A program made the translations under genes and the position numbers. DNA of 64,000 nucleotides from Nymphaea colorata. Taxonomy: Eukaryota > Streptophyta > Magnoliopsida > Nymphaeales > Nymphaeaceae. The stretch lies in assembly GCF_008831285.2 (NCBI RefSeq), contig NC_045145.1, positions 22,318,802 through 22,382,801 of the forward strand. The letters run 5' to 3'. Numbering within the stretch: position 1 is the first letter of the stretch; every line of letters starts with the position of its first letter. A model generated the notes under the pieces. The model was not told the DNA's origin, ran no database searches, and saw nothing but the letters and a program-made list of their open reading frames with translations. Below are positions 5,597-64,000 of this stretch, piece by piece.

Positions 5597-5651
5597 ATGA
5601 GTCGAGCTCGACTCGAACTCGCTCGATAAACTTGGCTCGAGCTCGACTCAT
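5597..5651. repeat. 55-bp inverted repeat, gagctcg-rich
   Basis: The arms atgagtcgagctcg (5597-5610) and cgagctcgactcat (ending 5651) are exact reverse complements around a short loop. Similar gctcgagctcg-rich palindromes occur in plant transposon remnants. This is probably a MITE or foldback fragment. Confidence 0.5.

Positions 5652-6945: not shown

Positions 6946-6948
<3 letters not shown>

Positions 6949-7014
<66 letters not shown>
6949..7014. repeat. (TA)n microsatellite
   Basis: An uninterrupted TA dinucleotide tract of about 33 units runs directly into the first copy of the 71-bp tandem repeat. Confidence 0.95.
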
Positions 7015-7017
<3 letters not shown>

Positions 7018-7213
7018 GAAAAAACAAGTATATCCGAGACTTTGTCCAGACCAAAGTGGGACCATTTAGACTATATATATATATACATGAAAAAACAAGT
7101 ATATCCGAGACTTTATCCGGACCAAAGTGGGACCATTTAGACTATATATATATATACATGAAAAAACAAGTATATCCGAGACTTTGTCCAGACCAAAGTG
7201 GGACCATTTAGAC
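7000..7213. repeat. 71-bp tandem repeat, three copies
   Basis: A unit made of a TA run, catgaaaaaacaagtatat and a segment ending gggaccatttagac recurs three times. The atgaaaaaac anchor is at 7016, 7087 and 7158, an exact 71-bp period. A diverged version with only one such unit occurs at the matching place in the second block (about 23730-23830). Confidence 0.9.
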
Positions 7214-7292
7214 GGTTAGACTTAGGTTGAACGGATGGCTCCAATGAATTGTGTCGTCCACTTCTTTCTATATTCCATTTACCGTTGTTTAA

Positions 7293-21426: not shown

Positions 21427-22465
21427 CTCTCTCTCGCTCTCTCTCAACAGAATATCGTGGATACTCAGTTTGGAAGGGCATCTTTAGTTTCCCACTGTCT
21501 TCAGCTTTTAAAGAATTTTTTTTCAAATGAATAGCAGATAATACCAATGCAATCACTTGAACGATTTGATGAGAATTAGGTAGGACAGTCTGGCTTGTGG
21601 GTCCATAGGCCCCGCCGATTCTAACTTGAACAATTCGGACAAGAATGATTGCAAGCTATTTGATTAGTTAGTTTAAAATGTATCATAAAATTATTTTTTG
21701 AAGTCAAATATTAGTTGTGAATTCATATTATTTGAAAAGATACGAGCATGCCAAGTTTCCTTCTGATCATGTGGTGTCTGTCGTGATGCCTCGACCAAGT
21801 TTGATTTAAGGTGCTAAAAATTTGGTGAGAGCACATGCATACAAACTTTTAGTTAGACAAAAAAAAAAAGATCATCTATATATAATATAATATATATATA
21901 TATATATGAGTGTGAAGTATTTTGTCAAGTACTACTTAGCCTACGTGGTCAAGTTCCAATCAACCCAAAACCGTCCAAATTATGCTAGAAGACGCACCTT
22001 GGTGCTAACCTTCTTATGAAGATTTTAATTGAGCGAGTGATTAAACCTATTAACATGGTATAATACAAAATGCTCAAATACGTGAAAGTTACTTATGTAA
22101 GTGACCTGCTATATATATATATATATATATGTAAATTTAAACATCTCGAAAGTGTGAAAGACCCGAACCGTAGCTTTGGGTCATTTATTTTTGCTGTCAT
22201 GGAACATCTTGTCCCACGTCGGGCGTCTTAAGCAGGCGCTTCTGACACGAGGGCTCCAATTGGTAGAAAAAAACCCACAACTCCTTGGACCAACTACACC
22301 ATGACAACTCAACTGGTGTCGGCAGCTCCAGCGTAAATTATTTCAAACATTATGTTTGAATGTTTGAATAGAAGGGCAAAAAGAAAAAAGAAAAAAAAAG
22401 GTGAAAGGAAAAGAAATGTATGTAAACGATGAACTTATTATTGTGTACATGTATGCATATATACA

Positions 22466-22553
22466 CACTCATAATCAAATTCTAGTATCAATTGATGAAC
22501 TTATTGTGTCACTCATAATCAAATTCTAGTATCAATTGACAAACTTATTGTGT
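22466..22553. repeat. 44-bp tandem duplication
   Basis: A segment beginning cactcataatcaaattctag is repeated with a 44-bp period (22466 and 22510), with two or three mismatches. Confidence 0.8.
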
Positions 22554-22654
22554 ATATATCTAATGTGTAAGTAAGTCACCACCTCATACTGGTCTTCTTC
22601 TTCTTCTTCTTCTTTTTTTTTTATTAGTTTGAGTCCTGAAGAAATCCCACTTTT

Positions 22655-23020
22655 ATGTTATGTTTGGATGAAGGGAAAGAGAGGGAAAGGAATCAATGGA
22701 AGGAAAAAAAAGACAATGGGAAGGGAAAGGAGAAGAAAGGAAAGAAAATGATCATCCATTTCTTTTCCTTCTAATCTCTTTATTTTCAGAGGGATTGAAA
22801 TTACATTTAAAATTAGTTTTATTCCCTTCCACTTACTTTTCCTTTCCTTACGTCCAAACACAGTTATTAGTTTTCTCTTTTTTTTCCTTTATATTAACTA
22901 ATAATCCAAACACAAGAAAGACCTTTCTTTCCATTCTTTTTCCTTTATATTAACTAATAATTCAAACACAGGAAAGACCTTTCTTTCCATTCTTTTCCCT
23001 TCCATCCAAACAGGCTCGCA
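22655..23020. mobile_element. MITE-like inverted-repeat element
   Basis: The left end tgtttggatgaagggaaag and the right end cttcccttccatccaaaca-type sequence (about 22995-23013) are near-perfect inverted repeats. The interior is a purine strand followed by a pyrimidine strand, so the whole element can fold back. An internal 57-bp-like duplication (caaacacaagaaagaccttt, near 22909 and 22966) lies near the right end. It falls in the part of block B that has no counterpart in block A. Target duplications are not clear. Confidence 0.55.
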
Positions 23021-25768
23021 TAAAACCTGAAGACGAGCACCTCTGCTGGACAAGTTTTAGGGTTTTGTTCCCACGAGCAAAATTATTATTCAAGAAGCAT
23101 TTAATAGTACTTATTTGCTGTGAGAAATTTAACGCCAATATATACACTAGTGTGGACCCTTTATTCGATTAGGCATAACTTTTTGACCTAGCTACCTTTT
23201 ACGACGCGCTTTCAAATATGAATTTTTTGGATAGCTTTAACCAATCACCTACTGTTGCCACTTACTTTGGCTCTTTATATCTTGAATGATTTGATAAGAA
23301 GATGAAAGGAAAAAAAAAAAAAAAACTGGTGACAAAGGTTATAAGATCTGACCAATAATGTTGAGGAGTCGTTCTCAGGCAAGGTATTACTAATTGACGC
23401 CATACGTGCTCAAGATTTTATCTAATATTATAAAGAGCAAATCAGGTAGATTATTTTTTTATTTTGTATCACTAAAAAAAATAAAAGAAAAAGCATTTCA
23501 TCATTAAAAACTGTGATCAAACTGGTCATGAAAAATGCTCTTTTCTGCAATAATGGATTTCAGCCAAAAAAAAAAAACAAAAAACAAACTGAGGCTAAAA
23601 GGTAGGTGGATGGCGGCCAGAAATTCTTTGGCGTTGACTGGGCCCTAGAATATGGGTGTTTGATCTTTATTAGACTGATATATCAATCATTTTCTGAAGT
23701 GGGTATATTGAGCTACTCATGAATTAATATATATATATATATATATAAGTATTTCGAGTCTCTTTTTCCAGACGAAAGTGGGATCATTTAGACGGTTAGA
23801 CCAAAGTGGGATCATTTAGACGGTTAGATTTAGGTTGAATGGATGGCTCCAATTAATGTGTCGTCAGCTTCTTTCTATTCGTTTACCGTTTTTTAAGAGA
23901 TGAAAGAAAGACTAACTTTTACTTCTACTGCCCAATGGACGTCCTGACTGCATGATCAAGATCGGACGTCCTGATCAAGATCGACCCTTGGTTTCAATAG
24001 AGAAGGAAGGGAGGAGCAAGGGAGAACGCACGGTTCGACCTTTTTACATTTTTTCTTTTTTCTTTTTTTGCCGTTTTCAAAGACAAGGTCCAAACAGGAA
24101 TTTTGCTTCCGTCCACTCATTGCATATCTGGACCATGATCACGACCTTTCATTCTCAAAATACTAAATAACGAAAATGTCTATTATCTTTTTCTTTTCTT
24201 TTTTTTGTCAACTGTCTATATGATATTAATGGTCGCAGAATCAAAGGCTATATACACATGTAGAAGGAGTCGAAGACAAACCTGAAGCCTGAAACCTTAA
24301 TCTCTTGTGATAAGCAGCAGCAGCAGTCTCATCTTGAGCACCCACAAAGAAAAAAGGTTCACATTAGTCATGACCTTGAAGGTCCGACTCATCCTTTGGC
24401 TTGTGTCGACAGCTGAGTGGAATCTTAGTCTTAGGTGCTGTTACTGGATTTATATCTAGTGTCACAAGAATTAAAGCACATGAACTAAGGATATCAGCAG
24501 ATAATATTTGCCATGTATATCGGACTAATCAGACACTGCTTTGCCTAATTTGAATTCAGATTCGAACATAGTATCTGAGCTTTTGCATGTATGCAATTGG
24601 ATTTGGATATATCCATGAAGCATAGTTGTAAGATCTAGACGTGACAAGAAAAAGCCCTGCACTAATTAATCTAATGAGATGTGAATTTAATTTCTTATTG
24701 AATATTATACCTGGATTAGAATACGGGCTTTGTGCTGATGTATAAGAAATTCTAATAAAAAACGTATCTAATACTGCTGGCGTTCATGTTTTGTTTATTA
24801 AACACATATTGATCACTGCAGCATGGACACTTGTCAAGTATTCATAGCTTGACAACTAGAACTCTATGAAGATAAAAAGTTGGATGAGAGCTTCGCTCAG
24901 GGAGTTGGATCTCCCCTGCTCACCCAAAAAGTCCTATTTCCAGTTTATTTCCTGAGAGTTAATTCAATGCAAATAAAGAGGCCATGAGATGAGTGTCGTG
25001 TCTCTAATTTCTTAGTTGTAGGGCTTGGAATACAAATTTTAATAATGGAACACTTTTCACCACTTAATTAAAACAACAGGCAAACAAAACTGGTCTGTTA
25101 CAGATCATCTAATTTATTTGCATAACAAGGTGAAGCAAAGGATGATATTCTTCAAAGACAAATAACACAATTCATAAACATGATATGTAAGATAAATAAT
25201 GCCTCGTACGTTTGAAATGAAATGTATTAATGTGAATGACAAATGTATTATTGTCAATTGTGTGAACTCCGTGAACATGCATAAGCAAAACCTATTACAT
25301 GATATTGGAATAATTCAATTGATGGTATTCTGAAATCAAATACTAGTTATAAATCCTATTTTAAAAAATAACTTCATATATATCGGTACCTCGAGTCATC
25401 CATGAAATTGAAATGTTATGACATGGTATGTCCAAGCATGAAACAGCATCACTTTGTAACTATGCTTGCTATCTGTCACTGGCTAACAATTCTGCTTTCT
25501 TTTATGTTGCGTTTTTCTTCGGTTTTATATACTAAATGACTATCATCTTCTTCCTTTCTAGACAATATATAGTAAAACTAAGTTTACTCAAGAAAAACAT
25601 TAAATTAGAAGTTGAATAAGCTCGCTTGTTCAGTTGTTTTCTTTGGTGAAAGTGACGGCCTTTGGACTGGGAACATTCGTCTCGCTTTCGTTGTATTCTT
25701 TCGTCACAGTGCGGTGGGAGATCTGTCGAACCATTTGCTCTCTCTTTTTTCATGGCTTCGAGACTTGA

Positions 25769-27727
25769 ATGCATTTCCCATGCAAAGTTTCCCTGCGAAC
25801 CCGAGCACTGAAGTTAATTGCGAATCAACACCCTGAAAGGCCTCCCTTTTCCCGCTTCTCCACTGGATCTACCACCAAACTGGTCAGCCCGGTGAATCGA
25901 CCCCTCTTAGACCGGTTTTCTACCCTGAAAGTGCCACCATGCTCAGGCTTCGCGAAGGCGGTGCAGTTGAAGCAGATACATGCCCAAATCATCACAAGCG
26001 GCCTACCGCTCCACAAACTATTTCCGTTCTGCGTCGAGTCCGGCAACATCGATTATGCGAGAATCGCGTTCGATCGAGCTCGAGTTCTCTGCAAATTCGA
26101 CCGGAATGCAATGCTTCAGGCGTATTCCAAGAGCGCGGTGCCAGAGCGAGCTCTTCTTCTTTTCCGCGAGATGCTTGCAGTCGGTGACCACGATTCCGGG
26201 CCAGACAAATACTCGTTCACGTTCTTGATCGCTGCTTGCTCGCGCTTGGATCGATCCTGCAATTGCCATTCAATGGTGGTTAAGAAGGGGTTTGAGCGCG
26301 ACACCTTTGTGAAGAATTCACTTGTCAGTATGTACGTATCTTTTGGGGCGATGGAAGATGCGAGAAAACTGTTTGATGGAATGACTGAACCGGGAGACGT
26401 GGTTTTATGGACTACCATGGTTGGTGGATACATGAAATTTGGGATGGTGGGTCTCGCACTTGAGTTGTTTGATGAAATGCCTGACCCGAATGATGTTACT
26501 TGGGGTGTTGTCATAGCGGGTTGTGTTAAAAATGGGAGATATAAGGATGCTTTAAGTATTTTCTATGACATGTTACAATGTACAAATGTCAAGCCAAATG
26601 AAGCATCCCTGGTTTGCGCCCTTTCTGCTTGTGCTCACTTAGGAGCACTAGACCAAGGCAAGTGGATTCATGTTTATGTTGACAAGAGAGGAGTCATTTG
26701 CAGCTCGAACCTTGCCACAGCACTTATTGATATGTACATGAAATGTGGAAGCATCACGCATGCACGTAGAGTTTTTAATAGTGTTTCTTCTAGAAAGGAT
26801 CTGCTTTCATGGACGAGCATGATCACGGGGCTAGCATTGCATGGACTTGGGAGGGAAGCAGTCGATCTGTTTCTGCACATGTTGGATGTTGGCATGAAGC
26901 CGGATCATATCACACTCATTGGAGTTCTAAATGCCTGCAGTCATTCAGGTTTAGTCGACCAAGGGCGCCAATTCTTTCATGGCATGCAACAATTATGGGG
27001 CATTGTGCCTACTGTTGAACATTACGGTTGCATTGTTGATCTTCTTGGACGTGCTGGCTTCATAGACGAGGCAGTGAACATTGCTAAGTGTATGCCTGTA
27101 GAGCCCGACATTGTTATATGGAGGGCCTTACTTAGTGCCTGTAGGATTCATGGAAATTTAGCACTAGCCGAAGAAATAATGCACCATGTAGACAGATGTG
27201 ATCCCCTTGATCATGGAGGCAGCAAGATTCTCTTGTCAAGCATGTATGCATCAAGCAACTGCTGGGATGGGGTTGCCAGAGTCAGGGGCACCATGTGCAA
27301 ACAAAGGATTCAGTTGGTTCCTGGATGGAGTTCTATAGAAGTGAAAGGTGTCATTCATGAATTTGTTGCTGGTGATAGAACCCATCCTCGAGCTGCAGAT
27401 ATCTATCAGAAGCTGGATGAGTTATTTAACAGGCTTCAAGCAGTGGGTTATAGTCCCAGTACATTGCGCATTTCGTTCGAGTTGAGTGAGGAAGATAAAG
27501 AGCAAGCCATGTATTGGCACAGTGAGAAACTAGCAGTTGCGTTTGGATTATTGAGCACTGAAGATGGGTTTCCCATTAGAGTGGTTAAGAATCTACGAAT
27601 TTGTGAAGATTGTCACTCTGCTATGAAAGCTATATCTAGAGTTTTTGGCAGAGAAATAATAGTGAGGGACCGATCTCGTTTTCATAACTTCAAACAGGGT
27701 AGTTGTTCCTGCAGAGACTACTGGTGA
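25769..27727 (+). CDS. DYW-class pentatricopeptide repeat protein (RNA-editing factor type)
   Basis: An intact intronless gene for 652 aa, a usual length for the PLS-DYW class. After a short Arg/Pro-rich leader that may target an organelle, PPR helices run from about residue 60 to 470, for example LALELFDEMPDPNDVTWG and ALIDMYMKCGSITHARRVF. An E/E+ region follows. The C-terminal DYW cytidine-deaminase domain has HSE at 584-586, CEDCH at 612-616 and terminates in SCRDYW. Family knowledge: such proteins bind a specific plastid or mitochondrial transcript and convert C to U, with the HxE glutamate and the HxE/CxxCH ligands of a zinc ion as the catalytic set. All are present here. The start is the first ATG that continues into the PPR frame; a nearby ATG at 25752 opens only a short frame. 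The copy at 10881 is dead, so this gene is likely the only functional member in the window. Confidence 0.93.
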   Translation: MHFPCKVSLRTRALKLIANQHPERPPFSRFSTGSTTKLVSPVNRPLLDRFSTLKVPPCSGFAKAVQLKQIHAQIITSGLPLHKLFPFCVESGNIDYARIAFDRARVLCKFDRNAMLQAYSKSAVPERALLLFREMLAVGDHDSGPDKYSFTFLIAACSRLDRSCNCHSMVVKKGFERDTFVKNSLVSMYVSFGAMEDARKLFDGMTEPGDVVLWTTMVGGYMKFGMVGLALELFDEMPDPNDVTWGVVIAGCVKNGRYKDALSIFYDMLQCTNVKPNEASLVCALSACAHLGALDQGKWIHVYVDKRGVICSSNLATALIDMYMKCGSITHARRVFNSVSSRKDLLSWTSMITGLALHGLGREAVDLFLHMLDVGMKPDHITLIGVLNACSHSGLVDQGRQFFHGMQQLWGIVPTVEHYGCIVDLLGRAGFIDEAVNIAKCMPVEPDIVIWRALLSACRIHGNLALAEEIMHHVDRCDPLDHGGSKILLSSMYASSNCWDGVARVRGTMCKQRIQLVPGWSSIEVKGVIHEFVAGDRTHPRAADIYQKLDELFNRLQAVGYSPSTLRISFELSEEDKEQAMYWHSEKLAVAFGLLSTEDGFPIRVVKNLRICEDCHSAMKAISRVFGREIIVRDRSRFHNFKQGSCSCRDYW

Positions 27728-35200: not shown

Positions 35201-38200
35201 GCAAAACTTAGTTTGGCAGCCAAAACATGATTTTGTGAAAAAGAAAATAACACAATAGAAAAATGATGGTCATTTTCAGCCACCTACCAGTTGCAAAATG
35301 GGCCCAGCAAGGTCATCTGTATCGTTGGAGCTGACCAGCCTTTTTCAGGTTGGTGGTTGGCCAGAAGACTGGCTGGAATACTTAAAATTGGAAAAAAGAG
35401 AAAAAGAGGCCGAATTTTGGTGACTGGCCAGGAAGTGTGTGAACTATGCAGACCAGGATTGCTGGAGATGCTCAGGCTTATCCCAGCCCATTTCCCGGTC
35501 ACTAGGTGGCTGTAAAAAAGTTGAAATTGGAAAAAAGCTAACATCCAAATCTTTTCCGGCCTTTCTTGGCTGGTAGCCAACCGAAAAAAGGCTGGACAGT
35601 GGTTTGACATCGTCTGACAAGAAACCTGTCATCTGGAGCATTATAGGCCATAGGAGTGTCCCAGGAATCTCATTAAAAAAGCAGGAAAAACATTGGAGCG
35701 TGAGGATAGATAGTCTGTTGTTGGAAAGACAGTAGGGCAAAAAAACATTCCCAGAGAGGACATGATTGGAGCTTGCCTGCTTGCTGGAGGGAAAGTGGTT
35801 GCTCTCGGAGGCCAGCTTTCTATGTCTCCTACTTGTAGTACCTTGAAGTTGAGCCGGACAAACACTATGATCATGAGAAGAATCAGCATCCCTCTTGTTA
35901 AACCTGCAACTCTGCTGCAACAGTGGAACAGTGTTCTCTGGTTCTCAGGTCTATGCTCTGCCATGGTTCCCTATGTTTTTATGAAGTCTGTTTTTTTGCT
36001 GCAGGTTCTAAATTCTCCTTTGGACAGTGGATACGTAGAAAGACTATTTTGCTTGTTTCTCTTTAAATTTCCTAGTACTAGCAAGTGTTTTAAGTCTTTA
36101 ACTGATTTGATCTTTCTTTGAATCATTTGGAATATGGATTCATGATATAGCACAAATGAAATATATATCCAAGTGTAACTGGAAACTGTAGGCTACCGAG
36201 ATTTGGTAGCTTCACATTACTTCGTTGATTCAACACCTATGATTCCCAGTACTGAGTCATGGGCATATTGCATGAAATGAATCCTAATTAAGTATGGGTA
36301 ATTGAGGGGAGCCTGCTTACATGCCTGGTATCTCTCTGACCTAAGAACTTCGCCTTTCTGCCCAGCTCTATCAGCAGGCCCCTTCTTTTGCAATACTTAG
36401 CAAGTAAATTGTCTTCCTCACTTCCCGTCTTCTTTAGGCCCCATCTTTTGCAATACTTAGCAAGTAATTGTGTTCCTCACTTCCTGTCTTCTTTCTTTAT
36501 TCTTTTGTCTTTAGTTCACCTTTTGCCCAAACCTTTGTGAAAATCCAGTTTGGACATAACTCCAGTACACCTCAAACTGAGTTGTTTTTTTGTTAAGCAG
36601 CCCCAGCTCTATCAGCAGGCCCCTTCTTCTGCAATACTTAGCAAGTAATTGTTTTCCTCACTTCCTGTCTTCTTTCTTTATTCTTTTGTGTCTTTAGTTC
36701 ACCTTTTGCCCAAACCATTGTGAAAATCCAGTTTGGACATAACTCCAGTACACCTCAAACTGAGTTGTTTTTTTGTTAACCAGCCTTTGCTCCCAAACCC
36801 AGTGGCTAGCTCAGTTTCGGGCCTTATGCAAACCCAACCTATGTCTTGTTTTGCTTCGTGCCAGAGCCTTAGTTCCCAAGACACCACTGATGAGCTTGCG
36901 CTTATGAAATTTGATTAATGCTGTATAAACTTTTTTAGGGAAAAATAAATTTGAAAACTTGTATATGCTGATGTGTTAGTTTACTTAAGATATCATTGTT
37001 TCTGTTTAGCTTTTTCTTGCTTTGGTAACTCTTCCTGTCATGTACCCCAAACATTTTTACTGCATGTCTTGCTTAGCATATATCAATTTATGCAGGTCAA
37101 AACCATTAGCCTATTTGGAGAAGTTTGGGGCATTGGTCCAGCCACTGCACTAAAGCTATATGAGAAAGGGCATCGTACTCTGGATGATCTTTCAAAGGAC
37201 GATTCATTAACCCATGCCCAGCGGCTAGGTGTGAAATACTTTGATGACATCAAAAAACGGATTCCACGTGATGAGGTAAAAAGCATTCTGCTAAAGCTTT
37301 GTTATCAAGAGCATCTTGCTCCTCTTGTCCACTATTACCTGGAGTGGCTTCTTTATTGGCCTAGGTCAAAGTAATGGAGGAAATCCTTCAGAAAGTTGGA
37401 AAGGATGTTTTGCCTGGGGTGAGATTGATATGAACTCTCTGAAACACTTCTTTTTTTTCTGATGATTTTTGTAATTATGTTAATTTATCCATTCTTGTTG
37501 ATGATGACAATAAAACTATTGGAATCGTCCTAGCATTTTTTTTAATTTGGTTAATTTTTTTAACCTGCTTCAAAGAAAAAAAAACCCAGTCCTCTTTTTT
37601 TGTCTTCCCATTGAGTTTTTAAAGAAGGAATGTGTTTTCTGAAGGAATGTCACTGTATCGTTGTGGACATTATGTCTTACTCGGAGGTAATACTTTTATA
37701 TGTTTTTGGCTTCCTATGATATTGTTCACTGGCAGTCCAAAAGGTGGTCTTTTCATGATGACTTTCTGAACTTCTAAGTCCAGTCTGCACAAAGGTGAAA
37801 ATATGATCCAGGCTTATCTTCTGCAAAGATGGAGATCTCACCTGTACAATTCTTTTGAGTTTCCTGCACATATAGTTGCCTTTATTTGTGCAAGTGTACA
37901 TTTTTATATGGACATTTGTTGTCAAACTGTTACCTAATTGTGTTGAGAGATAAAAGTATCGTAGGTAGTTATCTTAGAAATATTTCCAAATCACTACCTA
38001 CGATACTTATATTTTTCTCTTAACACAAATAAGGGTAGTATTGGCAAAGTGTTTCATCATGCATTGGTAGGCTCAGATTGGGACGGGTTTAGGTTGAGAC
38101 TCATTTAGGGACGTAACCCTGATTCACTTTTTCATAAACTGCTTGTAACCAGTGTTCGGGGATTACAATTTGTACTTTGCTGAATCAGCGAGGTTAAGGG

Positions 38201-49465: not shown

Positions 49466-50287
49466 CAGGCATGTAGATGCATTATATTGTGGAAAGGGCT
49501 ATAATGATGCAAAAAAGTGCATACTTCATCTTCTTGTACCAGGCATGGATGTGGTTTCCCATTTTGCTCACAGGTCTGCCTCCATTATAACTTTGCCAGA
49601 TAAATTTCTTGTCTTCAACAAATGTTAATATGGTTGAGGAAGCATGGAAAGGACCAAAGATGTTGATGAACATCTAAACCATAGAGACCCATTTGTCAAT
49701 AAACACTTTTTCAACTTGAATTAAGTGGAATTCTTATATGAAACGCATATTTGCTTGCCAGTTGTTTAAACTATGGCTTATTCTCTGCTTACTTGAGAGG
49801 ATCACGGCAAAGATAACTGCTTGAGCACCAGTTGGTTTCATTATGGCTGCAAAACCTTTAAATTTTCTTTTATATGTTTCTCTGGTGCTTTAAAAATATA
49901 GGGCAGAATATGGCAACTGGCCACTGCTTTGTTACATGTTATCAGGGTATCACCAACTGCCGTTAGACCACTTGGAGAGCAGGTGGCAAGAAGGAATCTG
50001 TGAATGATGTCGAGGTCGTGTGGTCTAAATAACATATGATTGTTCTGGTTTACCCAACAGGGACTGATCCTTTGCTGGCCTGGGGCTTTGAGGTTCCCTG
50101 TCACCGGTGTTGTTCTGAATCAGATGATGCAAATCAGATCGGTGCCTGATTGTTGCCGAATAGGAGAGGTGCTGCATGCCACCTGCAGTTCATTTCTTAT
50201 TATTCTATAAGTTAATCTAAACCTTTTCTTATTTTAAAAAAATGATTGTAATAAAAGCTTTTTCGTCAAAAAGGCCAGATGGCTTTT

Positions 50288-50337
50288 TCGTGTCCTCTAC
50301 TTAATCCACGATTCGTGTCCTCTACTTAATCCACGAA
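50288..50337. repeat. 25-bp tandem duplication
   Basis: tcgtgtcctctacttaatcc plus ccacga occurs at 50288 and again at 50313. Confidence 0.9.
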
Positions 50338-51208
50338 AAACAACCAGACATCTAACGACAGTGTTCCGGGCGGTCTGAAAGAAGAACTGTACAGATACAG
50401 GGGAGCTGAAGAGAACAAAGTATTGTATAATACAACACCCATGAGAACTCCCACAAGCCGTTTGATTGTTGAACAGACCACTATTTTCTTAGAACAAAAG
50501 TTGTCCATTGTAAGAGCTACCATTGCGTGCTCCACGAGAACACATTTTATATGATTTCGACATGCCCTCTTTTATGCAATGGTGGAGCCTATATGCCCTC
50601 AGGTATATGTGCGTGGCTTCTCCCCTGGTTTGATTGAATATGCATGTATGCAAGGACACGTCTTGCAATTTAAACAACCTTTCAAAAGAGCGTAGATGAT
50701 CCCGATCCGAGAAACTGAAGGGGTGTAGAAGAGCTCACAGACAGGAACCCTAGAAATTTCCAACTAGCTAGTCCGCTGACTGGACCTAAAACTAGAAATG
50801 AAGGGAAAATCACGATTTAGTTGGGATTAACCGTTGATCTTATGCATTTTTCTGAAGATTCTATAATGTGTTATCGTACAGTGCATTTTGAAATGATCCC
50901 GGTTGCTAAGATTTAACATTTCAGAGTTTTTTTACTGAAACTCTGGTTTTGTTTAAATGAATATTTCTGGATTGATAGCCATTTGGTTCCAAGCGTTATA
51001 TAGATGAAATATGATCCCATTGTCTTAGTCCGGGAAATTTGTACGCAAAATAGCAGCCAGATACTGATAGAAACCGTCTATGTAAATTGATTTATGAAGT
51101 ATCCAATTAATTCAATTGATTGTTCCCAAAATTTTATACTACATTTTTGTAAAAGTAAATTTGCAAGCAGTACTTTATGTCACTTAAGTAGATCAAACAC
51201 CTTTAAAT

Positions 51209-51246
51209 ATAAATAAATAAATAAATAAATAAATATATATATATAT
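51209..51246. repeat. (AAAT)n/(TA)n microsatellite
   Basis: A run of aaat units passes into a TA tract. Confidence 0.9.
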
Positions 51247-51480
51247 GAAATTTGAAGACTGGAGACGTTTTTGTATCTATCTGCCGCCAAAAGCCGTTAC
51301 CTTACTGACCTCAGAAAATGGGGAAAGCCTGTGGAACAATCATCATCCAAAAAGTAGATAAAATATTAGATTGGAAAAAATCTGATCAGTTTTGCTACAT
51401 GTACGTCGACGGGAAGGTAAGAGAAATGCGTAATTCATAAAGTAGCTAAATATTATATTGGAATAATCTGACCAGTTTTG

Positions 51481-51481
51481 C

Positions 51482-51543
<62 letters not shown>
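51481..51543. repeat. Interrupted (TA)n microsatellite
   Basis: TA dinucleotides interrupted by regular tacata units. Confidence 0.9.
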
Positions 51544-52678
51544 GCTCAGCATGATGAAACAGATGTAACCAGAATTTGTGGGGCACGGTGGCAGTGAATG
51601 AAAGGTTGAATTGCTTGATGACTTCCATACAGAGTCATGGCGATCAGGGGTTTGTTCAGAACAAAGCTACCAAAATAAAATCATCGTCCAGATTTAGATC
51701 CAACTTGAACGCATGACTGCGAAAGTTTAACTCAAGCTAATGTGCCTTATTTTCTTCCACCCGCCATTTCCCAGTTGGAGTTAACGATCAAAAGAAGAAT
51801 TGATCGCTGCGGAAAGCGAAAACACCGTAAATTGAAAAGATTGAAAAGAAAGTCTCAGATGCACCACAAGAATCATGAAACGGATTATGTGTATATTCCT
51901 ATAGACAAACAATTGTACGCGGCAGTGTGTTATGACCAAACCCTAGTTTAAGTTAAGAAAAAACATTTTTGAGGGGTAAAATGTGATTATGAAAAAGTTG
52001 AAAGTTTAAAATATACATTTTTTTTATAAAAAATTTTGAAAATACCCTAACCCCACCCATGTTCTCCTTCAAAAGTGTGCACCCAACTCGCTCTCCATGA
52101 ATCAATTTCATTGAAACTCGAAACAAGAGAAAGAGAAAGAATCCATAAAATAAAAATGCATAACAAAATTTGGAAACAATAAATCCTCTAAATATAAGAA
52201 TAAACAGTAAAAACAAAATAGAAAAATGAAATATACAAAACAACAACATAATAAAGTATAATAATAAAGGTGGGAAGAGAGTGCAACAACCAAAAACAGT
52301 GCCATAGAGAGAGAGTATAGTTGGTTTATCTATGTATTCAAGATAATACTTGCATTAGTACCATGGACTAAAACATGAAAGAGGGGACAGACCGACATAC
52401 TCAGACAACAGACAACAAAAGAGAGAGTGCAACATATATCTCTCACCATCACGAAATAAGAAAAGGCATTCAGAGCCTCACACTTAAACATAAAAAAAGG
52501 GCACTCGCTTCATGAGCGCCTCACACTAGCAAAGTAAAGCATGATATAAAATTCTGAAACAACCACCCAAAGTTCCACTCTCTTCTGCATCCAGCTGCAA
52601 CACCACGAAAGCAGTTTCTATCTTCCTTCCACCGCCCTGTTTTCCTTCTCGTTTTCTTTTCTCTTAATCACCACCCGG

Positions 52679-53707
52679 TTACGCTGCAGGGCGGCCTTGG
52701 CGCCGTTCTTTCCTATGTTTCAATAGCCTCTGCTCCCTCTCACGGAGTTTTTCCTTGCACGAGTTGGCTTCCTTCTTCGAGCTTTCGATAAGGGGGATTG
52801 CCTCTTCTAACTTGCTCAGGAGGCGTTTTTGCAGACGGAGGAGCTCCTCAGAAGAGCGGCCGCCCTTTATCAATATCTTTATCAACTCTTCAACGGACAA
52901 GTAGACGGGCCTTAAATCACTCAGCACATGCAGTCTTTTGTCCATGGGATACTGCAGCCTCCTGTACCGTTCCTTGAGCCGCAACTCCTCCATTTTTTTC
53001 TTCCACCGCCTGTCCACCCACAAGCCCAACTTATCCCAATTCACCACTTTCATCACGACCGTGGTGAGGCTGCTGCACAGCGCGAGGACCGGGTTGTGCA
53101 CCCCGAAAGCTGCAACGATACAAATCAAGGCAACAAGAAGGAATCCCTTAATGGTAGTGGAAATGACTTTCTTGACGCATTCCTTTCGTTGGAACCTCTC
53201 CAGTGAAACTCCCAACTGCTGAACCTTCTCGGCGATCAGTTGGTGTTGCTCCTGCAGGACACGCGACGTCTCCAGGAACCGCTGCGTACTGAAACCGCCG
53301 CCGGATAGGAATCTCCTCAGCTTATCCCGTATTAATTTTTTCTCCTGATCGGTCTTCTGGTTTTGTGACGGACTCCACTGTTTGAGGTCGTCGAGGAGCT
53401 GGCGGAGCTTTTTCCTCTGGCTCTCCAAGTTTTCGATCAAGGATTCCAAGAACTTCTTGGAAGCCCTGGTGAGATTAAGCAATTGCTGGTTAAGGCTGGC
53501 GAGAAGTTTCTCTTTGTACATGAGGTTGCAGTCGGGACAAACCGCGGTACATGGCAGCTTCACTGTCTGCTTGCTGAAGTAATCGAGGAAGGACACGGAA
53601 TGTTTGACGAGCTCCAACGAAACGCCTTCCGGCTTTATCTCCAGGAACCATTTGGAGAGCTCATTTAGAAGCTCCGTCATCTCTCTCTTTTCCTCTATGC
53701 AGGGCAA
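52679..53707 (-). CDS. UPF0496/DUF677-like membrane and coiled-coil protein
   Basis: A single-exon gene for 342 aa, clearly richer in GC than its surroundings, which supports coding. Residues 60-175 are Leu/Lys/Glu/Gln-rich helix. Residues 181-222 form one or two hydrophobic segments (GFLLVALICIVAAFG, then LALCSSLTTVVM). Next comes LWVDRRWKKKMEEL, then another charged helical region with many heptad leucines and a basic tail. Helix, hydrophobic hairpin, a W-x-x-x-x-W-K-K motif and helix resemble plant UPF0496 proteins, whose function is largely unknown. A CTAVCPDC cysteine cluster (53-60) is unusual for that family. The start may be M1 (53707) or M10 (MTELLNELSK, 53680), which is the more compact choice. 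The family call is tentative, while the gene itself is well supported. Confidence 0.75.
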   Translation of the reverse strand: MPCIEEKREMTELLNELSKWFLEIKPEGVSLELVKHSVSFLDYFSKQTVKLPCTAVCPDCNLMYKEKLLASLNQQLLNLTRASKKFLESLIENLESQRKKLRQLLDDLKQWSPSQNQKTDQEKKLIRDKLRRFLSGGGFSTQRFLETSRVLQEQHQLIAEKVQQLGVSLERFQRKECVKKVISTTIKGFLLVALICIVAAFGVHNPVLALCSSLTTVVMKVVNWDKLGLWVDRRWKKKMEELRLKERYRRLQYPMDKRLHVLSDLRPVYLSVEELIKILIKGGRSSEELLRLQKRLLSKLEEAIPLIESSKKEANSCKEKLREREQRLLKHRKERRQGRPAA

Positions 53708-56700
53708 GCCTTACAAGCCGAGCAGGTTTTATAGAATGATCGTAAGCCTTGTACACATCATCCGTATGTACATGAATATCTGTTAACAATTATTTTTTTT
53801 TTTTAATTTTTATTTTGTGAATTAAGAATATTTTAGTCAGTAATCCTATAACACATGAAAATTCGTACACCAATATGATGCATATAATCAGGGGTTCAGC
53901 AGGTAAGATGTACAGATTACGGCCTTATTGTCGTTTTTGCTTTGTCGTTTTTAAATCAGCTTAAAATATTTAAAATATGATCTTTTATAAAAAAAATTAG
54001 AAATGTACAATACTGGCGGATAAACAACGATGTGTATCATGGGATATACCATATCGGCTTCATGCTGAAACAGTAGTAATACCATTATTCACATCATCCG
54101 TTTGCCAATTCAACGGTCGGTGAGGGGTCAATTTCGACCATCTTGGCCGACGTTTCCAGTCTGCATGAGCGTCCAAAGATTGTTGTGTGGTTGGAAGGGA
54201 TGGAGTGGTTTTTTTTTTTTTTTTTTGGTCGCTGCGATAATACAAAAAAAATTAAAAGAAGGATTACAAAATAAACTAATATTACCAAATTCATTATTTT
54301 TGGGGGCAATTATCTTGAGGAAGCTACCCATGAAGGAGAACATTTTGAAAAGATATACAATCGGTCGCTTAAATGTTTGGGAATTCACTGTGCGGGTGCA
54401 TTACTTAGAGGACTTCATGTATGTATGAACTCAGAGGACTCAAAGTCGACCCCACACCTCTCCGCCCTCCCTCCACCACACATTTTTTTCAGTTTAAAAT
54501 GGAAGCTAGTTGGAGTTTTCATGGGTTGCTTTTCCATTTGATAATTGATTCTGAGGAAACCATTTGGGGTCAAGAGACTTTGTTGTACTATTTACTGGTC
54601 TTAGTCTTATAAATAAGGGGTGACTTTTAGTCTTATAAATAAGGGGCGAAGTCAAGGTAGGGCCCAGTTGGGTCTTGACTCTACATCAATTTTTTTTTAA
54701 AAAAGTTATATATAAATTTTAGAATGTTCCAATTGTTTTATATAACAACTTTAAAAAATAATATTTAAGCCCTAATCAAAATTTAGAATGTTACCTTTAT
54801 GAAAATTTTTTTGCTCCACCCATAGTCTGTTCGCATCAACTAATCATCTTGTGCGCGTCAGACCAAAACATATTAAAATAGTTAATGGAGCCAATAGGAA
54901 CACAACGAAGGTGAAGAGTATAAATCATAGGGTCCCTGCAGGTCTTAGCCACCATGTTATGCCTGGCTTTTTATTATTTTATATGAAATATTTTTACGGG
55001 TGCCAGCTGTAAAATTTGGGAAGAGATTTAAACATGGGAGGGATTCTAGCAAATCCACAACCTACAATTAATAACAAATTAAGGAATTGGAGAGTTACTA
55101 ATGATTTAAAGGACAGCAACTTTCTGAGAGGAATCATAAATTATCCCAAAACTATTTGTACTTGTCCGGAGCAAGGTTCAATCAAATCCAACAGTCCAGA
55201 AGAACATATCAAAGGTAAATCTTTCGTTAAGGTCCAGATGAGTTTGTCAAGGCATCTTCAGCTAATCCACATTCAAATGCATAAAAAAAAAATTTCCTTT
55301 TGGGTATTCTGAATTCATTGTTTGTTTTTTTATGAAAGTTCAGGTTTTTTTAATGATTCAGACCAATAATGCTAAGATAAGCCAATGTGAGAGGTGAATT
55401 TGGATATATTCATCATTATACTTTTTTTAGTAGAGAACTAACCCTTTACATAAGTAACTTTCATCTTCAAAAACAGGAAGCAAATTATGGATGTTAGTGG
55501 ATCAAATTTGAATCAGATGTACTCTGATTCCCTTGTTTTGGATGTTCACATATTTAGATTTGAAGTCAATTCTTATATAAATAAAGAAATTGAAGTCATA
55601 ACTGAATGTGATTTTCACAATCTGAACCACATTTTTAAGGTCACGTACATGTGAATCTGGATGCCAATTTTAAAGAGTATCCAAACCACATACGAATCAA
55701 CTTTCAAAATGTTAAACCATCCTATACAAGGTTTTTCTTTAAAACTACGTCCAATCTAAATCCAGATCAAATTTGAATTTGAATCCACCCAGATACTTAT
55801 ATAAATATGAATTAGAATCTGATGTCATTTTTAATTTGATCCAATTTCTTAGTCGGATGTTAAATTATGTTTTTCTCCATATTGATTGTATTGAAAATGT
55901 TTCTATCAAATATTAAATCCAAAGTGAATTTATTGGCATCCCTAAAACAAATGGTGCAGCGTGAACGGAACCGTATCATTTCAGCCATGGTGTGCACATG
56001 TCTATGCTTACACCCACATAACTGTCAATTCACTAAAGTAAATGCAAATGAAATTATTATAAATGAAACAAATGTGAATGAAATGATTGTGACAATCGAG
56101 TGTGTTAATTTTAGTCATTGAATGGTCCCTACATGTTGTGGAATATGTGAGAGACTTCAGGCTACCATCATGATGTTTTTCATATATATTACATCACAGA
56201 TTTGAGCTCTAACCTTACAGGGCTAGGGATTTATTTGGTTTGTTACCACTCTAAATCTTCTGTTGTTTTCTTTTCAAGTTTTGATGGACTTGCTGCAGAT
56301 GACTCAACTCAGACCCTATTGGAGAGATTTTGGATTTATTGTACTGCCGACACGTCATGTTTTGGGTCTCATTGATATCTTATTTTGTTAGATGTCAATC
56401 TTGTTTTTTTAGGGCATTTTTATCATGTGTTTCACTGAGGAATGTGAAGTGACTTTGTATGAACTGAATTTAATACATAATAAAATATTTGCCCCATTGT
56501 CTTTTGATATGCATAGTTCCTTTTGAATCGTTGTGTCGTCGCACATTGACATTTTATGTTTTTAACAAAAAAAAAAATTTATTTGAGGGTAAAAAGGTTG
56601 AGATGTGACAAATGGTGTCATTTTTTTTTTGCAAATAAAATTCATTAAGCTAAAAAGTTGGACCATTGGTTTTTCTTTGAAATATTAACTAAACACTGGC

Positions 56701-56760
56701 TAGAATAGCACGGTGTTGACCGTCAGTTTTAAAACATAAAAATCAAGATCACTGGGATCA

Positions 56761-56840
<80 letters not shown>

Positions 56841-56841
56841 C
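56761..56841. repeat. Compound (TG)n(TA)n(GA)n microsatellite, copy 1
   Basis: Three successive dinucleotide tracts lie inside the macro-repeat. Its second copy is at 61237-61319. Confidence 0.95.
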
Positions 56842-57989
56842 AATGGAATGTCATGTCAACTAATTAAATTACTAAGATTCTTAGCCTCTGATCACATACT
56901 TCAAGCCCTCAAAAGGTGGGTGTGAGTCAATTCAACGGATGATTCTAAGTCGACGACCAGAGAACCGCAAGGTTCCACACAGGGCGCGTTTGATCAAACA
57001 GTGAGTCCCACACTGATTCAGTCCGCTCCGGTCCTAAGATCTCTAGTCATGAAGGAATTTCATGTTCAATTTCTAGTTATGTCTATTAACTGATCTTATG
57101 TGAACTCGGAATAGTAAATTCTGTGATCATAAAGCTTGACATGAACGTGCCTGTCTCTATATTTGAGAGCTGTGTGCCTTTTTTGTTCTTGTCCGTCCGC
57201 TCTACAGCAACACATACGCTCTGCGTTATTGTTAGTAGCAGTGAGACTTCGTTGTACTTTTGGCACAACTTGCGTCTTCCATGCAGCATTTGGGTACATG
57301 ATCTAGATGCCCCTTGAAAGAATTCCCATTGTAAGAGTTCTAAACCAACACACTAATGTAGCTCTGGACTTTGGAGGTAAGGGGTAGCAAAACTTGGCCT
57401 GGCTCTCCCTGTGTAGTGGGGGATTTCCTACAAGATCGCTTGATAAAAGATTTTTTTTTTTTTGGAGAAAAAAAAAACACCTCTATGCTCATGAGAGAGT
57501 GAGGATGTCAATGGATCATATTTAAATAGGATATATTGTCGACTGTATATGCTTTTTTAGATGTTCACTTATTGGAGTTTAAATTTGAACATGAACAAAA
57601 AAAAAAGTCATATATGAATATGAATTAGAAGTCTTATTTTACAATCTAAATTTAAAATGATTTTGATTTTTACATCCATATCTGAATTAGAATCTGAATT
57701 TTGAACTGAATCCAGCCGATTTTTAAATGTAAGAACCTTAGATATAGAATATTTATTGAACACTAAATTAGATCAGAATCCAATTATATATATATCCAAA
57801 TCTGAATCTGATTGAATGTGACTTCTTAAATCCAGTTTCTCTTCGATTTTTCAACCAGCTAATTTTTTTTTCATGTCAGATTTTTTCTAAACAGTTCGAC
57901 CATATATCTAAGTTAAATATGCACCTTTTGCTGAAAGATATTTTTTTTTCATGCATTTTCATTGTTTTACTTTTTCAAAATTTTCTTAG

Positions 57990-58123
57990 ATATTTGCGAG
58001 TGGAAATGAGACGGAAAATAGCCGGAAGCTTCGCTATAATTCAACCCAAGTTGCCAGTGGAAGCATACATTTGTCCCTCCCTGTTCATGCCTTCATGGGT
58101 GCTGATAGACTCTATTCGCCAAG
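57990..58123 (+). pseudogene. Exon-like island in macro-repeat copy 1
   Basis: After the acceptor-like tttcttag, 134 bp of balanced base composition stay open and end at CAAG|GTGAC, a donor-like site. The frame contains RKIAGSFAIIQPKLPVEAY and PSWVLIDSIRQG. It stands out from the AT-rich surroundings and looks like a captured exon. The family is not recognised. The same island recurs at 62467-62600. Confidence 0.35.
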
Positions 58124-58265
58124 GTGACTATCATCTTTCCAAGAGGTTCTTCTTTTATTATTTCTTTGATGCCTAATTCTTGATATTTGGTAGATCCACA
58201 TCCTATTGGCATGGTGCAGACAAAGAGAGAAAGTTGCGGTACGCCAAAAGAAATATCTTCTATAG

Positions 58266-61236
58266 TTTTTTTTTTTAATTTTTATTTTGTGAATTAAGAA
58301 TATTTTAGTCAGTAATCCTATAACACATGAAAATTCGTACACCAAGATGATGCATATAATCAGGGGTTCAGCAGGTAAGATGTACAGATACGGCCTTATT
58401 GTCGTTTTTGCTTTGTCGTTTTTAAATCAGCTTAAAATATTTAAAATATGATCTTTTATAAAAAAAAATTAGAAATGTACAATACTGGCGGATAAACAAC
58501 GATGTGTATCATGGGATATACCATATCGGCTTCATGCTGAAACAGTAGTAATACCATTATTCACATCATCCGTTTGCCAATTCAACGGTCGGTGAGGGGT
58601 CAATTTCGACCATCTTGGCCGACGTTTCCGGTCTGCATGAGCGTCCAAAGATTGTTGTGTGGTTGGAAGGGATGGAGTGGTTTTTTTTTTTTTTTGGTCT
58701 ATTTTAGCTGCGATAATACAAAAAAAAATTAAAAGAAAGATTACAAAATAAACTAATATTACCAAATTCATTATTTTTGGGGGCAATTATCTTGAGGTCC
58801 TCAACCCATGAAGGAGAACATTTTGAAAAGATATACAATCGGTCGCTTAAATGTTTGGGAATTCACTGTGCGGGTGCATTACTTAGAGGACTTCATGTAT
58901 GTATGAACTCAGAGGACTCAAAGTCGACCCCACACCTCTCCGCCCTCCCTCCACCACGCATTTTTTTCAGTTTAAAATGGAAGCTAGTTGGAGTTTTCAT
59001 GGGTTGCTTTTCCATTTGATAATTGATTCCGAGGAAACCATTTGGGGTCAAGAGACTTTGTTGTACCATTTACTGGTCTTAGTCTTATAAATAAGGGGTG
59101 ACTTTTAGTCTTATAAATAAGGGGCGAAGTCAAGGTAGGGCCCAGTTGGGTCTTGACTCTACATCAATTTTTTTTTAAAAAAGTTATATATAAATTTTAG
59201 AATGTTCCAATTGTTTTATATAACAACTTTAAAAAATAATATTTAAGCCCTAATCAAAATTTAGAATGTTACCTTTATGAAAATTTTTTTGCTCCACCCA
59301 TAGTCTGTTCGCATCAACTAATCATCTTGTGCGCGTCAGACCAAAAAATATTAAAATAGTTAATGGAGCCAATAGGAACACAACGAAGGTGAAGAGTATA
59401 AATCATAGGGTCCCTGCAGGTCTTAGCCACCATGTTATGCCTGGCTTTTTATTATTTTATATGAAATATTTTTACGGGTGCCAGCTGTAAAATTTGGGAA
59501 GAGATTTAAACATGGGAGGGATTCTAGCAAATCCACAACCTACAATTAATAACAAATTAAGGAAATGGAGAGTTACTAATGATTTAAAGGACAGCAACTT
59601 TCTGAGAGGAATCATAAATTATCCCAAAACTATTTGTACTTGTCCGGAGCAAGGTTCAATCAAATCCAACAGTCCAGAAGAACATATCAAAGGTAAATCT
59701 TTCGTTAAGGTCCAGATGAGTTTGTCAAGGCATCTTCAGCTAATCCACATTCAAATGCATAAAAAAAAATTTCCTTTTGGGTATTCTGAATTCATTGTTT
59801 GTTTTTTTATGAAAGTTCAGGTTTTTTTAATGATTCAGACCAATAATGCTAAGATAAGCCAATGTGAGAGGTGAATTTGGATATATTCATCATTATACTT
59901 TTTTTAGTAGAGAACTAACCCTTTACATAAGTAACTTTCATCTTCAAAAACAGGAAGCAAATTATGGATGTTAGTGGATCAAATTTGAATCAGATGTACT
60001 CTGATTCCCTTGTTTTGGATGTTCACATATTTAGATTTGAAGTCAATTCTTATATAAATAAAGAAATTGAAGTCATAACTGAATGTGATTTTCACAATCT
60101 GAACCACATTTTTAAGGTCACGTACATGTGAATCTGGATGCCAATTTTAAAGAGTATCCAAACCACATACGAATCAACTTTCAAAATGTTAAACCATCCT
60201 ATACAAGGTTTTTCTTTAAAACTACGTCCAATCTAAATCCAGATCAAATTTGAATTTGAATCCACCCAGATACTTATATAAATATGAATTAGAATCTGAT
60301 GTCATTTTTAATTTGATCCAATTTCTTAGTCGGATGTTAAATTATGTTTTTCTCCATATTGATTGTATTGAAAATGTTTCTATCAAATATTAAATCCAAA
60401 GTGAATTTATTGGCATCCCTAAAACAAATGGTGCAGCGTGAACGGAACCGTATCATTTCAGCCATGGTGTGCACATGTCTATGCTTACACCCACATAACT
60501 GTCAATTCACTAAAGTAAATGCAAATGAAATTATTATAAATGAAACAAATGTGAATGAAATGATTGTGACAATCGAGTGTGTTAATTTTAGTCATTGAAT
60601 GGTCCCTACATGTTGTGGAATATGTGAGAGACTTCAGGCTACCATCATGATGTTTTTCATATATATTACATCACAGATTTGAGCTCTAACCTTACAGGGC
60701 TAGGGATTTATTTGGTTTGTTACCACTCTAAATCTTCTGTTGTTTTCTTTTCAAGTTTTGATGGACTTGCTGCAGATGACTCAACTCAGACCCTATTGGA
60801 GAGATTTTGGATTTATTGTACTGCCGACACGCCATGTTTTGGGTCTCATTGATATCTTATTTTGTTAGATGTCAATCTTGTTTTTTTAGGGCATTTTTAT
60901 CATGTGTTTCACTGAGGAATGTGAAGTGACTTTGTATGAACTGAATTTAATACATAATAAAATATTTGCCCCATTGTCTTTTGATATGCATAGTTCCTTT
61001 TGAATCGTTGTGTCGTCGCACATTGACATTTTATGTTTTTAACAAAAAAAAAATTTATTTGAGGGTAAAAAGGTTGAGATGTGACAAATGGTGTCATTTT
61101 TTTTTTGCAAATAAAATTCATTAAGCTAAAAAGTTGGACCATTGGTTTTTCTTTGAAATATTAACTAAACACTGGCTAGAATAGCACGGTGTTGACCGTC
61201 AGTTTTAAAACATAAAAATCAAGATCACTGGGATCA

Positions 61237-61318
<82 letters not shown>

Positions 61319-62742
61319 CAATGGAATGTCATGTCAACTAATTAAATTACTAAGATTCTTAGCCTCTGATCACATACTTCAAGCCCTCAAAAGGTGGGTG
61401 TGAGTCAATTCAACGGATGATTCTAAGTCGACGACCAGAGAACCGCAAGGTTCCACACAGGGCGCGTTTGATCAAACAGTGAGTCCCACACTGATTCAGT
61501 CCGCTCCGGTCCTAAGATCTCTAGTCATGAAGGAATTTCATGTTCAATTTCTAGTTATGTCTATTAACTGATCTTATGTGAACTCGGAATAGTAAATTCT
61601 GTGATCATAAAGCTTGACATGAACGTGCCTGTCTCTATATTTGAGAGCTGTGTGCCTTTTTTGTTCTTGTCCGTCCGCTCTACAGCAACACATACGCTCT
61701 GCGTTATTGTTAGTAGCAGTGAGACTTCGTTGTACTTTTGGCACAACTTGCGTCTTCCATGCAGCATTTGGGTACATGATCTAGATGCCCCTTGAAAGAA
61801 TTCCCATTGTAAAAGTTCTAAACCAACACACTAATGTAGCTCTGGACTTTGGAGGTAAGGGGTAGCAAAACTTGGCCTGGCTCTCCCTGTGTAGTGGGGG
61901 ATTTCCTACAAGATCGCTTGATAAAAGATTTTTTTTTTTTGGAGAAAAAAAAAACACCTCTATGCTCATGAGAGAGTGAGGATGTCAATGGATCATATTT
62001 AAATAGGATATATTGTCGACTGTATATGCTTTTTTAGATGTTCACTTATTGGAGTTTAAATTTGAACATGAACAAAAAAAAAAGTCATATATGAATATGA
62101 ATTAGAAGTCTTATTTTACAATCTAAATTTAAAATGATTTTGATTTTTACATCCATATCTGAATTAGAATCTGAATTTTGAACTGAATCCAGCCGATTTT
62201 TAAATGTAAGAACCTTAGATATAGAATATTTATTGAACACTAAATTAGATCAGAATCCAATTATATATATATCCAAATCTGAATCTGATTGAATGTGACT
62301 TCTTAAATCCAGTTTCTCTTCGATTTTTCAACCAGCTAATTTTTTTTTCATGTCAGATTTTTTCTAAACAGTTCGACCATATATCTAAGTTAAATATGCA
62401 CCTTTTGCTGAAAGATATTTTTTTTTCATGCATTTTCATTGTTTTACTTTTTCAAAATTTTCTTAGATATTTGCGAGTGGAAATGAGACGGAAAATAGCC
62501 GGAAGCTTCGCTATAATTCAACCCAAGTTGCCAGTGGAAGCATACATTTGTCCCTCCCTGTTCATGCCTTCATGGGTGCTGATAGACTCTATTCGCCAAG
62601 GTGACTATCATCTTTCCAAGAGGTTCTTCTTTTATTATTTCTTTGATGCCTAATTCTTGATATTTGGTAGATCCACATCCTATTGGCATGGTGCAGACAA
62701 AGAGAGAAAGTTGCGGTACGCCAAAAGAAATATCTTCTATAG
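58266..62742. repeat. Macro-repeat unit, copy 2 (about 4.48 kb)
   Basis: Nearly identical to copy 1, offset by 4472-4478 bp depending on small indels. It shares derived changes with copy 3 (the tattttag insert near 58700, gaggtcctcaacc near 58795) and has at least one private change (accaagatgatgc near 58342, against accaatatgatgc in copies 1 and 3). Copies 2 and 3 therefore look like the younger pair. Confidence 0.95.
61237..61319. repeat. Compound (TG)n(TA)n(GA)n microsatellite, copy 2
   Basis: Same arrangement as at 56761-56841, with small differences in tract length. Confidence 0.95.
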
Positions 62743-64000
62743 TTTTTTTTTTTAATTTTTATTTTGTGAATTAAGAATATTTTAGTCAGTAATCCTATAA
62801 CACATGAAAATTCGTACACCAATATGATGCATATAATCAGGGGTTCAGCAGGTAAGATGTACAGATACGGCCTTATTGTCGTTTTTGCTTTGTCGTTTTT
62901 AAATCAGCTTAAAATATTTAAAATATGATCTTTTATAAAAAAAAATTAGAAATGTACAATACTGGCGGATAAACAACGATGTGTATCATGGGATATACCA
63001 TATCGGCTTCATGCTGAAACAGTAGTAATACCATTATTCACATCATCCGTTTGCCAATTCAACGGTCGGTGAGGGGTCAATTTCGACCATCTTGGCCGAC
63101 GTTTCCGGTCTGCATGAGCGTCCAAAGATTGTTGTGTGGTTGGAAGGGATGGAGTGGTTTTTTTTTTTTTTTGGTCTATTTTAGCTGCGATAATACAAAA
63201 AAAAATTAAAAGAAAGATTACAAAATAAACTAATATTACCAAATTCATTATTTTTGGGGGCAATTATCTTGAGGTCCTCAACCCATGAAGGAGAACATTT
63301 TGAAAAGATATACAATCGGTCGCTTAAATGTTTGGGAATTCACTGTGCGGGTGCATTACTTAGAGGACTTCATGTATGTATGAACTCAGAGGACTCAAAG
63401 TCGACCCCACACCTCTCCGCCCTCCCTCCACCACGCATTTTTTTCAGTTTAAAATGGAAGCTAGTTGGAGTTTTCATGGGTTGCTTTTCCATTTGATAAT
63501 TGATTCCGAGGAAACCATTTGGGGTCAAGAGACTTTGTTGTACCATTTACTGGTCTTAGTCTTATAAATAAGGGGTGACTTTTAGTCTTATAAATAAGGG
63601 GCGAAGTCAAGGTAGGGCCCAGTTGGGTCTTGACTCTACATCAATTTTTTTTTAAAAAAGTTATATATAAATTTTAGAATGTTCCAATTGTTTTATATAA
63701 CAACTTTAAAAAATAATATTTAAGCCCTAATCAAAATTTAGAATGTTACCTTTATGAAAATTTTTTTGCTCCACCCATAGTCTGTTCGCATCAACTAATC
63801 ATCTTGTGCGCGTCAGACCAAAAAATATTAAAATAGTTAATGGAGCCAATAGGAACACAACGAAGGTGAAGAGTATAAATCATAGGGTCCCTGCAGGTCT
63901 TAGCCACCATGTTATGCCTGGCTTTTTATTATTTTATATGAAATATTTTTACGGGTGCCAGCTGTAAAATTTGGGAAGAGATTTAAACATGGGAGGGATT
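62743..64000. repeat. Macro-repeat unit, copy 3 (cut by window end)
   Basis: The array restarts at aatttttattttgtgaatt (62754) and continues to the last base of the window, matching copy 2 with very few differences. The array therefore extends to the right by an unknown amount. Confidence 0.95.

Follow-up and report, generated by a model that had tools for sequence, protein, structure and literature searches.

The final 10.2 kb of a 64,000-nucleotide stretch of Nymphaea colorata DNA (NC_045145.1, positions 22,318,802 to 22,382,801; this whole stretch is the window, and all coordinates count from its first base) consist of a tandem array of a 4.48-kb unit. Two full copies and the beginning of a third stand head to tail (Table 1), and the term array rests on these 2.28 visible copies. 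On its left the array adjoins the upstream region of an open reading frame (ORF) with likeness to DUF677. It begins 60 bp from a TATA-like box and about 114 bp beyond the likely start codon of this ORF, the ATG at 53680. The array probably exists as assembled and arose by recent tandem duplication of intergenic plant DNA, later reshuffled by one unequal crossover.

Table 1. Features of the array and of its left border, in window coordinates
Feature	Coordinates	Strand	Basis
ORF, DUF677 (UPF0496)-like, with sub-cut-off Pfam score; neighbour of the array, unrepeated in the window	52679..53680	-	Pfam, blastn
TATAAAA, possible TATA box of the DUF677-like gene	53727..53733	-	sequence; function putative
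T12 tract that contains the array's left border; T11 at both internal junctions, 58266-58276 and 62743-62753	53793..53804	.	sequence inspection
Copy 1 of the 4.48-kb unit (4472 bp), first ~1.3 kb divergent	53794..58265	.	self-comparison, alignments
Copies 2 and 3 longer by net 7 bases, directly after T run of 18/15/15	54227..54231	.	alignments
Short replacement; in copies 2 and 3 it forms a perfect 6-bp inverted repeat around a 1-base loop	54315..54326 (vs 58792-58804)	.	alignment
Inferred switch interval in copy 1 coordinates, given one exchange	54869..56355	.	alignment, inference
(TA)22 then (AG) microsatellite in copy 1; (TA)23 in copy 2	56773..56840	.	repeat scan, alignment
Copy 2 (4477 bp), mosaic: left copy-3-like, right copy-1-like	58266..62742	.	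alignments, scan statistic
Copy 3, first 1258 bp, ends at window end	62743..64000	.	self-comparison, alignments

Layout and left border

Self-comparison of the window matches 53791-59523 with 58263-64000 in one unbroken head-to-tail alignment of 5743 columns at 99.44% identity, and 53791-55045 with 62740-64000 at 98.26%. Length and identity of this match are far beyond chance. They confirm a preliminary description of this DNA in which two full copies and a partial third follow each other with nearly no divergence. The same junction between the end of one unit and the start of the next is present twice, which supports tandem duplication. As adjacent copies of high identity in the same direction, the array has the form of a tandem segmental duplication or copy-number variant. 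As a kilobase-sized non-coding unit repeated head to tail, it also has the form of a macrosatellite or long-monomer satellite.

Exact homology starts at 53794, inside the T12 tract. The preliminary description had set the start at 53795, one base off, and had rightly put the left border in a poly-T run. The 53.8 kb to the left of the array contain 13 tracts of at least ten A or T, which cover 0.28% of that sequence, so that a border in such a tract is unlikely by chance, with a single border to judge from. The end of the unit (its last 200 bp) does not resemble the 200 bp that precede the array: the score of 8.5 lies below the shuffle mean of 13.3, and a decayed leftward extension of the array is rejected for this segment. 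Likewise, blastn finds no repeat of the left flank inside the array. A loose local alignment of 3.8 kb of left flank with the unit scores 105.5, above all three shuffles (73-91.5). It is a gapped alignment of 2.4 kb that pairs 50068-52492 with 55295-57792. The same flank segment has no match to the unit by blastn at E 1e-10, and the alignment is taken as common AT-richness.

Differences between the copies

Alignment of copies 1 and 2 yields 20 differences, seven of them changes of run length and 13 others, and a second aligner recovers the same events. The differences other than run-length changes are strongly clustered: 11 of the 13 come before alignment column 1315 (window positions to 55087), at a rate of 8.4 per kb compared with 0.6 per kb beyond. 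Run-length changes are spread more evenly, with three to the left of this column and four to the right. In a scan that compares the best split with the best splits of 20,000 random placements, the 13 non-run events give p = 7.5e-4, all 20 events p = 1.0e-3 (best split at column 817), and the 12 non-run events left after removal of the site private to copy 2 p = 2.9e-3.

In the 1258 bases available for copy 3, a single substitution and no gap separate it from copy 2. Over about the same left part (~1.3 kb, to 55086) copy 1 differs from copy 2 by nine substitutions, of which a single replaced stretch accounts for two, and by seven gaps, and it differs from copy 3 by eight substitutions and seven gaps. 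To the right (~3160 bases) copies 1 and 2 are separated by two substitutions and four run-length changes. The two recent pairings thus have similar rates, 0.8 substitutions per kb for copies 2 and 3 and 0.6 for copies 1 and 2 on the right, based on counts of one and two. Copy 2 therefore appears as a mosaic whose left part has a recent common ancestor with copy 3 and whose right part has one with copy 1, since the divergence is concentrated in the left end of copy 1, a region in which copies 2 and 3 are near-identical. The preliminary description had argued from shared and private variants for stepwise unequal crossing-over. That suggestion is supported, and the stronger sign of it is this clustering together with the mosaic state of copy 2.

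The variants it had named need some rewording. What was called a 'tattttag' insert in copies 2 and 3 is a real variant but amounts to a net gain of seven bases relative to copy 1; the adjoining T run counts 18 bases in copy 1, compared with 15 in the other two. At 53829 there is a match of seven to eight bases to the insert, too short to have meaning. The supposed copy-2-only variant accaagatgatgc does mark a difference, which is no insertion but a single T-to-G change at 58346. The short replacement at 54315-54326, whose state in copies 2 and 3 forms a hairpin, might reflect a short-range template switch; a random 7-base replacement yields a hairpin of this kind in 0.8% of trials, and for this reason the case is suggestive only.

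Content of the unit

The unit has a G+C content of 33.8%, compared with 39.1% for the sequence to its left. A hidden gene is rejected on the basis of Pfam searches, which give no family at the cut-off in nine single frames from copy 1 and none above it in the six frames of copy 2; a single bacterial family matched those six frames, at E 0.03 and with 15.8 bits where the cut-off is 40. One frame of the unit, 55013-55309, matches a C2H2 zinc-finger model below the cut-off at E 0.2. No Rfam family reaches its gathering score anywhere in the window. Between 53700 and 58300 there are four sub-threshold matches, the best to mir-297 (E 0.0015, 34.9 bits against 90); TA or T/A runs underlie three of them, the other contains an A run, and all are ascribed to chance. 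The unit holds no tRNA by tRNA search and has no match in plasmid records, and an exon-like frame at 57990-58124 has none among solved structures. Promoter and terminator sites of bacterial type occur at the level of shuffled sequence, and such sites carry no meaning in a plant. The earlier statement that the unit contains no recognised gene is thus upheld by the Pfam, Rfam and tRNA searches. The six frames of copy 2 likewise hold no transposon protein domain above the Pfam cut-off by which the unit could be assigned to a long terminal repeat (LTR) retrotransposon, another retrotransposon or a transposon. It may still be a piece of a non-coding transposon.

A model for the origin of the array

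Unequal exchange in tandem arrays is textbook knowledge, and the mosaic can be accounted for by a single such event. In this model a 4.48-kb stretch, with its left edge in a T tract of the proximal upstream region of the DUF677-like gene, would have been duplicated once. The likely route is short homology between T tracts, of which the one at the left border is visible. The resulting copies, A and B, would then have diverged by about five single-base changes per kb, or eight events per kb with insertions and deletions, as judged from the visible part. One unequal crossover of A with B, between sister or homologous chromosomes, would have produced the order A - B/A - B. Copy 1 would accordingly represent A, copy 2 would be B on its left and A on its right, and copy 3 would be B. 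This order is what one unequal crossover in a two-copy array is expected to leave, and the observed mosaic is therefore accounted for.

Given one exchange, the switch falls between 54869, the rightmost observed position that sets copy 1 apart from a shared state of copies 2 and 3, and 56355, the next substitution after 55087. This would place the crossover 1.1-2.6 kb from the start of the unit; the left part of the interval is the more probable, since one A run is the sole difference within 55088-56354. The model predicts that copy 3 becomes B-type to the right of the window edge at position 64000. The tandem layout, the left border and the mosaic can be seen in the sequence; the order of events, the exchange itself and the correctness of the assembly are inferred. 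No function is required to explain the array.

Several points weigh against a duplication followed by one crossover. No more than 13 non-run events support the case, and of the three copies one is incomplete. The event list was made by hand, and one misaligned cluster at a T run was split manually into a run-length change and an insert. Taken alone, the ten single-base changes give p = 0.019 in the clustering scan, and the run-length changes cluster little, with three of seven in the left 1.3 kb. Moreover, gene conversion in place of a crossover, or re-insertion of a circle, can yield the same visible pattern.

Alternative explanations

The array could be the edge of a much longer macrosatellite whose inner copies have been homogenised by exchange and conversion, while the outermost ~1.3 kb escaped. 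This reading is possible, if clearly weaker than that of a young duplication with one crossover. Edge effects are known in arrays, and the divergence here is indeed found at the outer end of the array, in the outermost copy that can be seen. Passages of PMC8122249 give concerted evolution through exchange and conversion as the standard model. On the other hand, no more than 2.28 copies are visible, with no sign of others, and the array begins beside an open ORF. A longer array is a special case of a real one and so overlaps with the preferred reading, for which reason the likelihoods given here to the several explanations do not sum to one.

It is unlikely, though less so than the remaining alternatives, that the array is an artefact of assembly in which two haplotypes, or error-rich reads of one locus, were laid end to end or the copy number was otherwise misjudged. 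Such errors are well documented: passages of PMC9516828 put 7 to 24% of the false duplications in three earlier vertebrate assemblies on the same scaffold and name heterozygosity as a main cause. The differences between the copies are, in our judgement, of the size of allelic variation, and the window contains three further tandem duplications, short and exact, that could be join errors. According to the same passages, however, false duplications are mostly separated by assembly gaps and have half the read depth or less, whereas the window has no N. The unit junction seen twice also needs a source, and a plain copied block would not give an ordered mosaic. The argument of the preliminary description against an assembly copy error is thus reasonable without being conclusive, as the artefact is made less likely. 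In comparison with the false duplications portrayed there, the array shares near-identical adjacent blocks with allele-like differences and departs from them in its three copies, single kind of junction, ordered mosaic and lack of N.

It is improbable that the unit was excised as an extrachromosomal circle and returned to the chromosome through homology, either in two steps or as a dimer. By reasoning, a B-type dimer circle that entered copy A would leave the same visible mosaic, and circles are a proposed route of satellite growth in the part of PMC8122249 that deals with them, but more steps are needed than for one unequal crossover. Hardly any weight falls on the idea that the array was retroposed, with the T tract as the poly(A) tail of a transcript from the minus strand. 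The minus strand of the unit does end in an A12 tract with AATAAA just before it, yet neither a reverse transcriptase nor another Pfam domain stands above the cut-off in the six frames of copy 2. Retroposons are not known to insert as head-to-tail repeats.

Neighbouring genes and other repeats

The window is best read as plant nuclear DNA because it carries two NLR genes, one PPR-DYW gene with a PPR relative, and a piece of DNA polymerase lambda. The ORF next to the array matches ten Pfam families, all below the cut-off, of which DUF677 is the best (E 2.1e-5, 24.1 bits against a cut-off of 29.1). A block that includes one NLR and one PPR gene is present twice in the same order, at 1812-12609 and 18709-27547, in seven matching pieces of 80.9-93.6% identity. 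The PPR-DYW gene is a single frame of 652 codons at 25769-27724. Its relative at 10881-12592 is split across several frames and looks broken, with no DYW domain in the two of its frames that were scanned. A 183-bp unit in 1.9 copies (36436-36785) lies shortly before a frame with a DNA polymerase lambda fingers domain (36955-37371). Exact two-copy tandem duplications at 19-116 (49 bases), 1214-1308 (47) and 50287-50336 (25) are either young products of slippage or errors at contig joins.

Relation to known tandem repeats

Tandem amplification at short repeats is described in part of PMC8831618 by the scheme 'SRS N + unit + SRS N', with growth by unequal sister-chromatid exchange. Units in the screen reported there are mostly under 5 kb, the short repeats measure 2-200 bp, and heads and tails mostly hold the short repeat alone. 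The array resembles these amplifications in its head-to-tail units and may resemble them in a junction repeat of variable length (T12, T11 and T11). It differs in that its junction tracts are single-base runs, which fall outside the published range of 2-200 bp, and in that it is known from its left end and its internal junctions.

Kilobase-sized units are established in plants and elsewhere. In potato the Sobo unit measures 4.7 kb and centromere repeats range from 979 bp to 5.4 kb, as given in sections of PMC3648361, and the human D4Z4 unit measures 3.3 kb, as mentioned in PMC8122249. The preliminary description was right about the length of the unit, but its phrase 'much longer than ordinary satellites' is overdone beside these examples. 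Unit length, plant host and tandem order are shared with the potato satellites covered in those sections. In contrast, Sobo fills about 360 kb near a centromere and is LTR-like, whereas the array has 2.28 copies and lies beside genes; four of the six potato centromere repeats derive from retrotransposons, whereas the unit has no trace of a transposon protein (PMC3648361).

The maize b1 locus offers a further comparison: seven copies of an 853-bp repeat lie there ~100 kb upstream, according to passages of PMC3798267. Like these repeats, the array is non-coding, tandem and upstream of a plant gene. Unlike them, it has a unit five times longer, lies ~0.1 kb from the gene and is known here from sequence alone. 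It would be very surprising if the array were a copy-number-dependent regulatory element of the DUF677-like gene, either a multiplied enhancer or a b1-like source of silencing small RNA, with its number varied by unequal exchange. This reading is prompted by position alone, 60 bp above the TATA-like box.

Kilobase units and unequal exchange being known already, the array is most likely otherwise ordinary, and it serves as a reminder that kilobase tandem blocks in plant assemblies need to be checked against the reads. If it is real, three copies would suffice to trace one exchange in a clean and very young array, and the sequence just beyond the window is firmly predicted. The array adjoins the upstream region of a gene, and, if real, an effect of its copy number on expression could thus be checked.

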